From: a bacterium
Lineage (GTDB): Bacteria; Orphanbacterota; Orphanbacteria; Orphanbacterales; Orphanbacteraceae
Assembly (NCBI GenBank): GCA_025782575.1
Contig: JALGYY010000022.1
Span: forward strand, 1-9,857
Reading direction: 5' to 3'
DNA length: 9,857 nucleotides
Below are positions 341 through 8,310 of the stretch, one piece after another. The translations under genes and the position numbers were made by a program. The notes beneath the pieces are model-generated. The model was not told the DNA's origin. It searched no databases and saw nothing but the letters and a program-made list of their open reading frames with translations. Numbering within the stretch: position 1 is the stretch's first letter; every line of letters begins with the position of its first letter.

Positions 341-2887
341 TCATCGAAGGAGAATGACGCGTGTGACGGCCCGCTCGCCGGCGGCTTCGAGAGCAAAGAA
401 ATAGACGCCAGAGCGCACGGAGGGACCTGCCGTGCTTTCCCCTGACCAAACGACGTGGCCCTCGAGGCCCGCAAATCCGCCCTCGATCAGCGTCCGGACG
501 AGTCTTCCCGCCACGTCGTAGACACGAAGTGAGATCGGTCCGGACGACGGCACCGTGTAGTGAACGGTGGTAACCGGGTTGAACGGGTTCGGCGCCACGC
601 GGAGGGAAAGCACGCGCGGCGGGAGGGACGTCGCTGGCCCGGCTACATCAGTTGCCACAACGGAGCACCCGTTCACGCGGACGTCGTCGTACCAAGCTGT
701 CATGTAATCACTCGGGCCCGACGGGTCCGAGAAGTAGAAATTGCCTCGCGGGTCCCATCCGGCGTTGTACGTCGCGGTGCCAACGAACGTTCCGCCGACA
801 TCCACCGTGTACTGACGGCTCACCGGGTCCACGGTGATGACCACTTTCTTCCACGTGTTGCTGGGGCAGTAGCTCTGGAAAGCCGGGCCGAGCGCGACCC
901 GCCCACTCCAGTCGCCATTCTTGTCGTACTGAATCGCGAGAGTCGGCTGGTCGATGATGATTCGTACATGCCCGCAGAGCACCCAGAACCCCCAGTGGAA
1001 CGAGTTCCACCGATACCAGAAGGAGACCGTGTACAGTTCGGCGAAGTCGATGTCGAGCGAGGACGAGGATGCGGACGCATACGCACCGCCCGCGGCGTTG
1101 CCAGTCGACTTCACGCTCCAGATGCCGCTTTGCGCCTGGCTTCCGTCCACGGCGATCGTCGCGCCGTTGTTGGTGACGGTCCAGTCGGAGATGTTCGCGT
1201 CCTCAAAGTCGTCGACCCAGTCGGACCCGAGAAAGACAACCGTGTCGCGCGCGACGGCGCTCTCGATCCCGCGCGAGTTCGTCGCTCGCACCTCGACGTC
1301 GTGAGTCCCCCAGGCCGGCGACGCCAAGAAGGAATATGTCTCGTTGGCTTCGTCCCAAGAGCCGTCGTCCGGCGTCGCCGCCTGCCAAACGGCTCCGTCG
1401 AGTCGGTACTCCACGATCGAGACGCTCGTCACGTTGATCGAGTCACCGGAGCTCGAACCGGTCGAGTAACGCACGTGGTTCACGTTCGGCTCCACCTCCG
1501 GGATCACGCTTCCCGACCACGAGAGGGCCCCGCAGGCCGTGGACCCGCCGTAGCCGTTCAGAGCCAGCAGCGGGGGATGATCGACGATATCCGGGATCGA
1601 GTCGCCATCCGAGTCCATCCACCCGATGATGTTCCGGCAGAAGTTGCAGACGCTTCCATTGGTGAACTCAGCGAGCGTGTTGTTCTCCATGATGCACTCG
1701 ACGACCGGCTCCGGACCCTCGATACAGTTCCCGTTCGGCTGGTCGAGGTAGCCCGAGAGGCTGTCGTCGGAGCAGCCAGCGTACTCGTCGAGCGCGTAAA
1801 AAGTGTGGCCCAACTCGTGCGCCGTGAGGTAGTCGGTGTTGGCGTTCCCCCACTGGCCGCTGTCCCAGGTGAGCACCATGTACGGCCCGCCGAAGTAGGA
1901 CCAGTCGTATCTTCCGTTCGTGAACTTCCCGTCGGGATCGACCTGCGAGTTTACCGCGAAGATGGTGACGAACCACGCCTCATCAGCGTCGACTAGATAG
2001 TTGTTGTTGAAGTTCCGAACCTTGGCAAAGTAGTCAGCGCCACCATACCCGAGCGTGTCCATGAGATCGTCCACCCAGGTCGCTTCGAAGCCGGACGGAT
2101 GTCGGATCGGTTCCCACGGCGTCGCTACCTGCCAGGTGGTGGAGATCACCGTTTTCCAGCGGGCCGGGCCGTAGCGGGCGGCCCACCAATCCAGCCCGGC
2201 GGAGATTCCGATCAGCATGGTTGTCATGTCCTGCTGGATCCAGTTTTCCTGGTTGAGGTCGAGGTCGCCGTTCGACTCGGGGAAGATGATGTGGACGTTA
2301 AACTCCTCATGGAGGCTCCCGGGACCGTCGAGGATCATATACTCGCTCGTTGATGTGGGGCCGGCGCCGTAGCCCTTCTTTTCGGGGGCGCCGGAAGATT
2401 CCTCCCGGTACTCAGCGGGAACGGGAATGCCGCACGCGTAGTCGCGGGGAGGCGCGGAAACGCTGGCGGAGAGCGGCGGTTCGTCCTGCGCCGGGCGCAG
2501 GAAGTAGTCGTTCCAGATGGCGATCCCTGCCTCCTGCTCGCGCGTGAGCACGCCGTACGCCTCGGCGTTCGCGGCGTCAAAACGCACGTCGAGCACCTCG
2601 GGAAGCGCAACGATCCGGCCGCTTGCCTCGCGCGGAAGGAACGCGACAACTATCGAAGGCACGAAGACGAAGGTCACGCGACCTCCCTCGAATCGGACGA
2701 CTTCCTCCACTTGCTTGAGCGCCTCGACCGACGACGACGAGAGCAGGATCAACGCACGATCCCCCTCGGGGGCCGATATCGGCAGTCCGTTCGCGGTGAC
2801 GTCGCCCGTGAATACGAACGTCGCAATGGCGATGGCAATCCACCCGATCACCCACGACTCTCTCGATTCGGTTCCACCGGTTTTCAT
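341..2887 (-). CDS. Secreted zinc metallopeptidase, multidomain, with C-terminal FlgD-Ig/T9SS-like module
   Basis: 848-residue exported protein. The start at 2887 is chosen over an upstream in-frame start at 3031 because AGGAG lies 8 nt before it and a signal-type hydrophobic stretch follows (residues about 12-32). Residues 44-112 look like a protease-inhibitor I9-type prodomain. The catalytic region is about 183-440: HELGH at 357-361 gives two zinc histidines and the catalytic Glu358, Asp367 sits where a metzincin third ligand would be, and CIM at 398-400 could be the Met-turn. The HELGH…LDEY string also recalls M64-type peptidases, so the family is open. Then come a calcium-loop-like DSDGDSIPD (425-433), an Ig-like region (~455-552), a jelly-roll/LamG-like domain (~556-741) and a PNPFNP-led sorting-like module (~763-848). 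Ten cysteines suggest disulfides outside the cytoplasm. Substrate unknown. The coding region is much more GC-rich than the genes to its right. Confidence 0.88.
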   Translation of the reverse strand: MKTGGTESRESWVIGWIAIAIATFVFTGDVTANGLPISAPEGDRALILLSSSSVEALKQVEEVVRFEGGRVTFVFVPSIVVAFLPREASGRIVALPEVLDVRFDAANAEAYGVLTREQEAGIAIWNDYFLRPAQDEPPLSASVSAPPRDYACGIPVPAEYREESSGAPEKKGYGAGPTSTSEYMILDGPGSLHEEFNVHIIFPESNGDLDLNQENWIQQDMTTMLIGISAGLDWWAARYGPARWKTVISTTWQVATPWEPIRHPSGFEATWVDDLMDTLGYGGADYFAKVRNFNNNYLVDADEAWFVTIFAVNSQVDPDGKFTNGRYDWSYFGGPYMVLTWDSGQWGNANTDYLTAHELGHTFYALDEYAGCSDDSLSGYLDQPNGNCIEGPEPVVECIMENNTLAEFTNGSVCNFCRNIIGWMDSDGDSIPDIVDHPPLLALNGYGGSTACGALSWSGSVIPEVEPNVNHVRYSTGSSSGDSINVTSVSIVEYRLDGAVWQAATPDDGSWDEANETYSFLASPAWGTHDVEVRATNSRGIESAVARDTVVFLGSDWVDDFEDANISDWTVTNNGATIAVDGSQAQSGIWSVKSTGNAAGGAYASASSSSLDIDFAELYTVSFWYRWNSFHWGFWVLCGHVRIIIDQPTLAIQYDKNGDWSGRVALGPAFQSYCPSNTWKKVVITVDPVSRQYTVDVGGTFVGTATYNAGWDPRGNFYFSDPSGPSDYMTAWYDDVRVNGCSVVATDVAGPATSLPPRVLSLRVAPNPFNPVTTVHYTVPSSGPISLRVYDVAGRLVRTLIEGGFAGLEGHVVWSGESTAGPSVRSGVYFFALEAAGERAVTRVILLR

Positions 2888-2895
2888 GGCACGGT

Positions 2896-2900
2896 CTCCT
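2896..2900 (-). promoter_or_regulatory. Shine-Dalgarno AGGAG that fixes the metallopeptidase start
   Basis: On the minus strand the sequence reads GGAAAGGAGACCGTGCC then ATG, an 8-nt spacing. The alternative start at 3031 would add 48 Arg-rich residues in front of the signal peptide and lacks a comparable site. Confidence 0.75.
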
Positions 2901-3370
2901 TTCCTCGTGGATTTTCCTGTTTCATGCCACCTCTTCCGGCGGATGGCTCCAAAACTGGAGCGCTGTCTCCACGAGTCGTTCAGCGTCAACGGGCTGCTGT
3001 GGGCCTGGCTGCGAGGCTCAGTTTGCCCCACGCACGATCAACAGTGATACTACGAGACACCCGCGAACATCGAATGCGGATGCCCAGGCACGCCTAAGAG
3101 ATAGTTGCAGCGGAACAGGGTGATCAAAGAGATCGATGCAAAGGAACGCAGCCATGGAACTCCAAGCCCAGTGGGATTTCGTCTTCTTCTCATCTCTTGG
3201 TGAGCAGACTTTAGCTGATCCTAAGATCAATATAGCCTCGGCCACCAGGACCAACAAGGTGCCGCCCCTTGAACCCCGTAGTGTCCGAAAACTCGATCGA
3301 ATTGCAAGATCACGACTTGGGCTGCCGCTATCTCTACAATTATTAGCACCGCTTATGACAAGCGCCACAT

Positions 3371-3424
3371 CATCCTCCCGCCACGTGCGTGAGTCCTGCG
3401 CGCTCAGCCAGGTGACCCGGGCGA
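3371..3424 (+). repeat. Dispersed ~50-bp CACGTG repeat, locus 1
   Basis: One full unit begins CATCCTCCCGCC, with CACGTG at 3382-3387, continues GCGTGAGTCCTGCGC and ends with CCAGGTGACCC. The same order of blocks recurs at 3977, 4027, 6216 and 8235. This copy lies about 90 bp upstream of the lipoprotein start, the only one of the four loci not directly behind a plus-strand stop. A very degenerate second unit may follow at about 3425-3450. Confidence 0.85.
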
Positions 3425-3513
3425 CCATTGCTCTCCTGATGTGGCGGGGTCCGGCTCTTTCCCTTACACTGTGAGCGTTGTCATCTTCTACAAAGCAGTT
3501 TGTGAGGCAAGGC

Positions 3514-3918
3514 ATGTTCTCTGATCGCTTCCGAATCGCCAGGCTGCTAATTACGATCCTTACACTTCTTACCTTTAGCAGTTGTTCTGCCTATCGCCCG
3601 ATTCTTCTCAGCAGCAGCAAGTCTCAATCGAACAGTCCCGGGGCAGCGATAGATACTGATGCAATGGGCGCAAGGGTCAGGGTCCTTACCGCGGACGAGC
3701 AAATCCTGAGTGGGAGGATGCTGGCCATGGGAGAGGGGTGGGTATTAATTGAGTCCGGAGGAGAGCGCCTGCGTCTTGAGCACTCTGAGATTCAAGGAAT
3801 CTGGATTGAAGATGGTCAAAGTCCATTTCGAACAATGCTCTTGGTCGGCGTTCTGATCTTCGGTGCTGGCTTAGTGCTCTTCGCGACCTTTATAGAAAGT
3901 CTTTCTGGAGATATTTGA
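3514..3918 (+). CDS. Small lipoprotein with SH3/LSm-like domain and C-terminal membrane helix
   Basis: 134-residue protein, not assigned to a named family. A basic n-region and hydrophobic segment (residues 8-21) lead to FSSC with Cys24 as a plausible lipidation site, so export by Sec and lipid anchoring are expected. Residues 52-98 have the alternating beta pattern of a small SH3/LSm-like barrel (ARVRVLT…LSGRMLAM…WVLIES…LRLEHSEIQGIWI), seen in many uncharacterised bacterial lipoproteins. Residues about 107-126 form a Gly- and Leu-rich helix that could insert in a membrane. Start 3514 (ATG, with GAGG 6 nt upstream) is preferred to a TTG at 3478, because the latter lengthens the n-region and lacks a ribosome binding site. 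It stands alone: 61 bp further on the tandem repeat begins. Function unknown. Confidence 0.72.
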   Translation: MFSDRFRIARLLITILTLLTFSSCSAYRPILLSSSKSQSNSPGAAIDTDAMGARVRVLTADEQILSGRMLAMGEGWVLIESGGERLRLEHSEIQGIWIEDGQSPFRTMLLVGVLIFGAGLVLFATFIESLSGDI

Positions 3919-3976: not shown

Positions 3977-4100
3977 CATCCTCCCGCCGCGTGCGTGAGC
4001 CCTGCGCATTGAGCCACGTGACCCACATTCCTCCCGCCACGTGCGTGAGTCCTGGGCACGCGGCCACGTGACCCACGGCCCAGCGGCATCCTCCTCGCGG
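3977..4100 (+). repeat. Dispersed CACGTG repeat, locus 2: exact-period tandem pair plus partial third
   Basis: Two units, 3977-4026 and 4027-4076, are each exactly 50 bp and share most positions: (C/A)(A/T)TCCTCCCGCC, CGTGCGTGAG, CCTG, then GCCACGTGACCCAC. CACGTG occurs at 4015-4020, 4038-4043 and 4065-4070. A third, truncated unit (CATCCTCCTCGCGG) lies at 4087-4100. The array lies between the stop of the lipoprotein gene and the likely promoter of the beta-helix gene. Confidence 0.88.
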
Positions 4101-6156: not shown

Positions 6157-6215
6157 CAGACTTGTACCTAGAAGAAACTCCATCCGCTCAACATGAACGT
6201 TTGGCGCAGCAATGC

Positions 6216-6280
6216 CCACCTCCCACCACGTGCGTGAGTCCTGCGCGCTCGGCCAGGTGACCTGGGGCCATTCTTCCGCC
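6216..6280 (+). repeat. Dispersed CACGTG repeat, locus 3
   Basis: A full unit runs from 6216 to about 6265: CCTCCCACCACGTGCGTGAG, then TCCTGCGCGCTCGGCCAGGTGACC, with CACGTG at 6227-6232, the same offset (11 nt from unit start) as in the copies at 3371 and 4027. A degenerate second unit follows (ATTCTTCCGCC, 6270-6280), at roughly the 50-bp period of the tandem array. It sits about 60 bp behind the stop of the two-helix membrane protein. Confidence 0.85.
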
Positions 6281-6585: not shown

Positions 6586-7728
6586 ATGACCACGCCCGCC
6601 ATTCCCGACGAGATTCGACATACTATACTAGCCATTAGCATTGCTCTAGCATTGGCACCGTATATTCCGGGGCGGGATTTGGGCCCAATTAAGGTGCCCA
6701 AAGTTAACGCGATGTTTCGGAAGCTGCTTCAGTGGGGCGGCCCTCTTCTGATAATCATCTCGGTGCTCCTATATCTTCCAATCATTCCTGAAACCGAACA
6801 ACCAAGTTTCCGCTTCAAGGATGCCATATGCCGTCCGGACACGCTCTGGATAGTGCAGGAGGGAGGACCCCGTTTCGAACCGGACCATTTGACTCTTGAG
6901 TTAGACGGAATTCCTTTTCATGAACAAGTTCTTCGTGGACCAAACAGTAGGGTTGATAACTGGTACTTCGCAATGCAAGGTCGCAATCTCCCTGAAGACC
7001 TTGTAAAGGATGGAGCACATGACATACGAATTCTATCTCGAGGACGTGATCTCGCCAATCATGGAAAGGTTTTCTTTTCATCCTCCCCTCCGACGGTAAG
7101 CGCTCACATTGAGAAGCAGGATATGGATTCCTACGGCATTTTCGGCAAGGCGATAACCGGAACTCGGCTCACTAGCGACACTATCAAAGTAAACCTGCTT
7201 TTCTTCCATGAAGGGGCGGGCCAAAAGGTGGCAGTCCCCGTGATCCAGGTCGTAGATCTTGAGAGCGGCGATGCGCACTACGAATTCCACTACAGAATTT
7301 CAAACGTCCCGAATATGACATCCGAATCGCAAGCGTTTGATAGCCCGTTTTTTAGAATGGAAATCACTGATCAGATAGGGAACGAATTTCACCACGTTCA
7401 ATCATACGCTCATTTTGTCGCGCCGGGGAGGCAGTCATTTGGAACAGACCGGACCAAGATCTCAGTTAGGAAAGTTTCCGGGGAAGAACCGGGCGAGATT
7501 CGCGCCCAAATCCGGGTAAGCTCGGGAAGAACTCTTGGCGACTGGAAGAATAGTGACACTCATCCGATTTCGCTATTGGTGAACGGCCAGGCGGGGGGCA
7601 CAAGATCTCTATCATGGACTGACCTGCCTGATAGCAACAACGCGCGACCTTCCTTGACGGTTACCTTCCTTGACGGTTGTACTTCGAGATGGTCGAAGCA
7701 TTGGGGTTTCATTTGGAAACCAATATAG
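6586..7728 (+). CDS. N-terminal part of a frameshifted membrane-anchored protein
   Basis: 380 residues as read, but the last 21 (360-380) are out of frame because of the duplication at 7647-7678. Two hydrophobic helices, about 11-26 and 49-67, are separated by a short loop (PYIPGRDLGPIKVPKV) and followed by a large exported region. That region has beta-strand-rich stretches resembling Ig-like or carbohydrate-binding sandwiches (for example FEPDHLTLELDGIPF, HDIRILSRGRD, HPISLLVNGQ), but I cannot name a family. ATG 6586 has only an AG-rich stretch upstream (AGGAAAGAAG at 6569-6578) rather than a well-spaced Shine-Dalgarno. Removing one copy of the 16-bp duplication fuses it to the fragment ending at 8164 to give about 520 residues, presumably the ancestral form. 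As it stands the product lacks the fibronectin-III-like end. Composition is clearly less GC-rich than the metallopeptidase gene. Confidence 0.7.
   Translation: MTTPAIPDEIRHTILAISIALALAPYIPGRDLGPIKVPKVNAMFRKLLQWGGPLLIIISVLLYLPIIPETEQPSFRFKDAICRPDTLWIVQEGGPRFEPDHLTLELDGIPFHEQVLRGPNSRVDNWYFAMQGRNLPEDLVKDGAHDIRILSRGRDLANHGKVFFSSSPPTVSAHIEKQDMDSYGIFGKAITGTRLTSDTIKVNLLFFHEGAGQKVAVPVIQVVDLESGDAHYEFHYRISNVPNMTSESQAFDSPFFRMEITDQIGNEFHHVQSYAHFVAPGRQSFGTDRTKISVRKVSGEEPGEIRAQIRVSSGRTLGDWKNSDTHPISLLVNGQAGGTRSLSWTDLPDSNNARPSLTVTFLDGCTSRWSKHWGFIWKPI
7647..7678 (+). repeat. Exact 16-bp tandem duplication causing a frameshift
   Basis: ACCTTCCTTGACGGTT occurs twice without any gap, at 7647-7662 and 7663-7678. 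Sixteen is not a multiple of three, so the frame shifts by one and a stop appears at 7726-7728. With one copy removed the reading runs RPSLTVVLRDGRSIGVSF without interruption into the second fragment. The arrangement is what replication slippage or an assembly duplication would leave. Confidence 0.95.
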
Positions 7729-8164
7729 TGACTCCGACCGGCTTGATTCAAGCCGTGTTGCCTATAGAGTAGAGAGCCGTGTTTCGGACGGATCTGTTTA
7801 CTCTAGCAACACCGAAGTATATTCAGTTCCCCTGACGATCTCAGACATCACAGCGTCCCCATCTGGACTCGATGCGTTCGCTGTTACGATTACGTGGAAG
7901 ACCAATTTAGCTTCAGATTCGCAGGTGGAATTTGGAGAAACAGAGGAGTATTCAGCGCGTAGCATCGTCGACACAGCACAATTGAGTGAGCACTCGATAA
8001 CTCTTCTCGAGCCAGAAGTACGAGACGATATTCTATATCATTTTCGAGTTATCTCAACTTCACCAGAGGTTGGTATGGTGAAATCCGGTGATTTCTCGTT
8101 TCGTTTTGATGTTCCGGGAGTCGGGAGTCCAAGTGTGATAACTGGGCTTCGAGAAATACAATGA
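7670..8164 (+). pseudogene. C-terminal part of the frameshifted protein, fibronectin-III-like
   Basis: 164 residues counted from a TTG at 7670, which lies inside the duplication and is not a credible independent start: no ribosome binding site precedes it. Residues about 56-146 form a fibronectin type III-like domain of the kind found in surface and phosphatase-N proteins: VTITWKTNLASDSQVEFGET is followed by HSITLLEP, ILYHFRVISTS and SGDFSFRF, matching the strand order ITW…VEYG…H…L…YHYRV. In the repaired gene this domain is the outermost end of the membrane-anchored protein, a likely ligand-binding or spacer module. Unless frameshifting, slippage or independent initiation rescues it, this part is not translated. 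The stop at 8162-8164 precedes the terminator of the opposite operon. Confidence 0.75.
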
Positions 8165-8199
8165 ATCTGCCCTGTCTATCCGGAAAGACCGGTGTCCTT

Positions 8200-8226
8200 A
8201 AAAAAACTCCATCTGCACTTGATGGA
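8200..8226 (-). terminator. Intrinsic terminator of the minus-strand operon
   Basis: Read on the minus strand, TCCATC (8226-8221) pairs with GATGGA (8213-8208) across a 7-nt loop; one G then precedes seven T residues (8206-8200). It lies about 120 nt beyond the lipoprotein stop, with a repeat copy between, and also separates this operon from the convergent plus-strand gene ending at 8164. The plus strand lacks a T-run after the stem, so it should act in one direction only. Confidence 0.7.
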
Positions 8227-8234
8227 CGTCAGGC

Positions 8235-8310
8235 CATCCTCCCGCCGCGTGCGTGAGTCCTGCGCGCGTGGCCAGGGGACGCACACATCCTCCCGGCGCG
8301 TGGTGGGGCG
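8235..8310 (+). repeat. Dispersed CACGTG-type repeat, locus 4
   Basis: The full unit, 8235 to about 8284, starts CATCCTCCCGCCGCGTGCG, continues TGAGTCCTGCGCGCGTGGCCA and ends with a diverged GGGGACGCAC. Here the CACGTG core reads CGCGTG, as in the unit at 3977. A degenerate second unit starts at 8286 (CATCCTCCCGGCGCGTGGTG), a 51-bp period. The copy lies between the convergent genes, inside the region expected to be transcribed from the minus strand before the terminator. Confidence 0.85.

Follow-up and report, generated by a model that had tools for sequence, protein, structure and literature searches.

The window analysed here (9857 bp, the whole of contig C25) carries a gene that appears to have been broken recently and by a single event. 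We put at about two in three the probability that a one-off tandem duplication of a 16-bp unit, ACCTTCCTTGACGGTT (copies at 7647-7662 and 7663-7678, forward strand), frameshifted and disrupted one gene for a membrane-anchored protein with an FN3 domain (6586-8164, forward strand). The case for this reading is built on the relationship between the two frames that meet at the duplication, the history of the domain encoded downstream, and the structure of the duplicated site itself.

One gene in two reading frames

The upstream open reading frame (6586-7728, forward strand) encodes 380 residues. Its product begins with two hydrophobic segments, roughly at residues 10-32 and 44-72, which fit the label 'membrane-anchored' given in an earlier note on this DNA, and continues as an orphan region. 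After 353 residues, the frame reads on through the duplication and then into a 21-residue out-of-frame tail, ending in ...TVTFLDGCTSRWSKHWGFIWKPI. The downstream frame, which gives 164 residues when counted from a TTG (7670-8164, forward strand), corresponds to the rest of this gene on its C-terminal side. It is closed at its 5' end by a TGA at 7655-7657, within the first copy of the unit, and is open from just past this codon to a stop at 8162-8164. Neither a stop nor a second frameshift occurs downstream of the duplication before that point, and none of 5000 base shuffles was equally open over these 161 codons.

The two frames overlap by 71 nt (7658-7728, forward strand). In this overlap, the downstream frame contains no ATG or GTG, and the only ATG, GTG or TTG near its beginning is the TTG at 7670. 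This codon lies inside the second copy of the unit and is not preceded by a purine-rich ribosome-binding sequence. An independent start of the downstream frame, one of the two results that the earlier note had named as refuting its reading, was rejected on these grounds. Because the downstream frame lacks a usable start of its own, the two pieces are best read as one broken gene. A reading with a single copy of the unit joins the upstream frame to the frame ending at 8164 and yields one protein of 520 residues, in agreement with the earlier estimate of about 520 codons. This joined reading served only as a search query. Codon-usage scores of the two frames carry little weight here, since the region is atypical for the genome.

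The downstream part encodes an FN3-fold C-terminal domain (7805-8161, forward strand). Residues 400-518 of the joined reading share 55% identity, over 119 codons, with the C-terminal end of a protein of 951 aa encoded on contig C2 of the same genome, and the two proteins end at nearly the same point. The six other family genomes encode a similar large protein, whose C-terminus shares 38-52% identity with the domain. The remainder of the 951-aa protein has no detected relation to the N-terminal part of the window protein. Between the domain in the window and that on C2, 0.89 of synonymous sites and 0.33 of nonsynonymous sites differ (Nei-Gojobori). Synonymous sites are therefore saturated while replacement sites are constrained, a contrast that indicates long purifying selection on the domain. 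Judged by its sequence, the downstream frame is genuine and old coding sequence, and the disruption must be young relative to the age of the FN3 domain.

Structure prediction bears out the FN3 label for this part of the protein. An AlphaFold2 model of the downstream part, built from five sequences, reached a pLDDT of 69, and a Foldseek comparison of it with the PDB placed FN3 domains at the top (best E 2.4e-4). No FN3-type Pfam model scored above its cut-off; the only hit was PF16656 (Pur_ac_phosph_N), at 17.2 bits against a cut-off of 30. A model of the whole read-through protein, made from one sequence and from a reading that retains the five extra residues of the duplication, was unusable (pLDDT 35).

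The N-terminal part has a different standing. No homologues of the N-terminal 380 residues were detected in 145 related and distant genomes, GTDB contigs, IMG/VR viral contigs or plasmids, nor in the seven genomes of the phylum that were searched, and the source genome is the only one of its genus among the genomes compared. This part belongs to no Pfam, NCBIfam or PHROGs family, and its matches in the PDB are at chance level. A homologue ending near residue 380, the other refuting result named by the earlier note, was likewise not seen, as is to be expected of a part that yielded no relatives in these collections. The earlier description of both flanking frames as well conserved in character consequently applies to the FN3 part, but not to the N-terminal part, which has no detectable relatives.

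The duplicated unit and its origin

The exact 16-bp tandem duplication described by the earlier note was recovered as two identical copies standing head to tail without a gap (100% matches, TRF). In the 4.88-Mb assembly, the 16-mer occurs only at these two adjoining sites, even when one mismatch is allowed. It is also exceptional in kind. A 553-kb sample of the genome yielded no further near-exact tandem duplication whose unit measures 14-40 bp, and no other exact one whose unit reaches 11 bp; the next longest exact units were 10 bp (n = 2). A simple count puts at about 2e-6 the chance that 9.9 kb of sequence would hold two identical 16-mers side by side. The match between the copies spans just one period, so the junction is without microhomology, and no short direct repeat is present at the ends of the duplication in the one-copy sequence. 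It follows that the one-copy form offers no repeat from which the duplication would be remade.

Two other origins were considered and set aside. Templating by another copy of the unit was rejected, since none exists elsewhere in the assembly. A target-site duplication left by an excised transposon is improbable, as 16 bp with nothing else remaining would be unusual.

We infer that the duplication is present in the cells, having probably arisen once by an error of replication or repair. Since 16 is not a multiple of three, the ribosome would enter another frame beyond the duplication and stop 50 nt after the end of the second copy. Translation would then yield 380 residues, the last 21 of them an aberrant tail, and the protein would be deprived of about 160 C-terminal residues, the FN3 domain among them. 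The cells would tolerate this disruption because the gene is presumably accessory, part of a genomic island, and can be spared. As expected of a disrupted gene, the downstream part is former coding sequence under constraint and the gene has a single defect. In this it resembles the small-indel pseudogenes of accessory or orphan genes, in which likewise a single event breaks the frame of an otherwise intact open reading frame in an accessory region. The usual pseudogenising indel is 1-2 bp, whereas the one found here is a clean 16-bp tandem copy; otherwise nothing distinguishes the two.

Alternative accounts of the duplication

The main competitor of a recent mutation is an assembly artefact, an unlikely account but one that deserves weight. 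Here the cells would hold one copy, and two contig ends sharing a 16-base overlap would have been joined without being merged. The contig is small and repeat-flanked, the run of exactly one period is what a failed overlap merge would leave, the 553-kb sample holds no other such duplication, and a single copy would give a clean gene. However, the k-mers usually employed in assembly exceed 16 bases, and with a non-repetitive local sequence nothing obvious would prompt a join at this point. Real tandem duplications of about this size are, moreover, well documented.

The earlier note had also raised the prospect of a phase-variable switch, in which the second copy would often be gained and lost and the population would mix full-length and truncated protein. 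This we regard as improbable. Exact tandem copies can be removed precisely, and there is a precedent in Streptococcus pneumoniae, whose capsule undergoes phase variation through duplications that arise spontaneously in the capsule genes cap3A, cap8E and tts (Waite 2001, 2003, as cited in PMC4022640). The pneumococcal genes and the window gene have in common a short exact tandem duplication within an open reading frame that alters its product, and in both the duplication is, in principle, precisely removable. The pneumococcal duplications, however, were seen to form and to revert in populations under growth, and with a phenotype, whereas the present case is one static assembly, which shows no one-copy allele. 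The two copies at this single occurrence are also the minimum product of any tandem duplication, and re-formation is not favoured, the one-copy state having no direct repeat. The reversion of tandem insertions of up to 9 bp, given in PMC4022640 as about 1e-5 at most, likewise counts against frequent switching; the literature offered no directly usable general rate for the excision of a 16-bp tandem copy. Nor does the gene have a known function that would profit from switching. Simple-sequence-repeat contingency loci consist of many short units that often change in number, and a site with two 16-bp units falls outside that class. A stronger version of the claim, in which selection in an uncultured bacterium maintains the duplication as a naturally recurring means of turning a surface protein's FN3 domain on and off, is more doubtful still.

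The proposal of the earlier note thus survives in part. That one gene was split, and split recently, agrees with the constrained downstream part, the lack of any other defect and the missing downstream start. Its reversible or switching character finds no support at a site with only two copies and a one-copy form that lacks junction microhomology.

Expression of both frames as they stand, whether by +1 ribosomal frameshifting in the overlap at 7658-7728 or by separate or re-initiated translation from the TTG at 7670, is scarcely credible, as no +1 shift site is recognisable by inspection, the TTG lies inside the duplication with no ribosome-binding sequence, and the downstream piece would be left without a membrane anchor.

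Genomic setting and implications

Both the recent mutation and the artefact have to be judged against the surroundings of the gene. The window is a whole contig of 9.9 kb, one end of which (1-154) repeats the end of contig C36 (L037 8204-8356) with 96.7% identity over its first 153 bases; the region is for these reasons hard to assemble. The sequence common to the two contigs is likely to be a dispersed repeat at which the assembly broke. GC3 is about 0.52-0.58 for the genes at 3.5-9.7 kb and 0.39 for the downstream fragment, compared with 0.60-0.81 for the majority of genes in the rest of the sampled genome. The region is accessory DNA, an orphan-rich and repeat-rich island, and both the lack of relatives of the N-terminal part and the low-GC3, repeat-bearing context are as expected of such DNA. 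A broken orphan gene is unremarkable in accessory DNA of this sort, which is also difficult to assemble. Given a small contig in an island of this kind, harmless decay and assembly error are both plausible.

Several further features of this setting were recorded. An intergenic repeat of about 50 bp (consensus CCTCCCGCCACGTGCGTGAGTCCTGCGCaCtCaGCCAgGTGACC) occurs in the window at 3371-3421, 3977-4077, 6216-6266 and 8235-8302. It forms clusters of one to five units, spaced about 50-53 bp apart, and usually lies 10-140 bp 3' of a gene on the same strand. The repeat is limited to six of the 49 contigs (C9, C25, C36, C39, C40 and C45), keeps a single orientation on each, and does not occur in the other six family genomes. 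It can fold as a hairpin, in which 81% of pairs hold, against at most 48% when slid; the left arm is nearly invariant, which makes covariation uninformative. The layout resembles a cassette array or REP-like elements, but the canonical ends of an integron attC are, by inspection, missing, and there were no Rfam matches in the window. A second conserved element, approximately CCCTCAAAAAAACTCCATCTGCACGAGATGAGCGCTAGACC, is found just 5' of several of these repeats (window 6167-6218 and 8196-8237; L038 6163, reverse strand; L039 5930; L040 14353) and contains a small palindrome, CATCT-GCACG-AGATG.

Window positions 3371-3612 are 81% identical in DNA sequence to L036 10875-10634 (reverse strand), and this match starts exactly at a 50-bp repeat. 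The similarity continues into a gene for a small lipoprotein-like product (window 3514-3918; L036 10331-10744), a pattern suggestive of copying, between the two sites, of units bounded by the repeat. On contig C39, a XerC/XerD-like tyrosine recombinase (L034 10057-10914, reverse strand), which scores below the NCBIfam cut-offs, is located where high-GC3 core genes give way to lower-GC3 genes, and may mark the edge of the island. Contigs C9 and C12 also encode similar recombinases of about 290 residues, close to the end of the former and the beginning of the latter. Within the window itself, 341-3031 (reverse strand) encodes a secreted protein with a HELGH metalloprotease-type motif, a weak Laminin_G_3 match and a Por_Secre_tail/FlgD-like C-terminal domain.

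For annotation, the locus should be entered as one frame-disrupted gene rather than as two genes. If the duplication is real, the locus gives a further example of a short tandem duplication that has lately broken an orphan gene of the accessory kind. Should sequencing reads give a mixture of alleles, duplication-based phase variation, known from the pneumococcal capsule, would be extended to a poorly sampled lineage.
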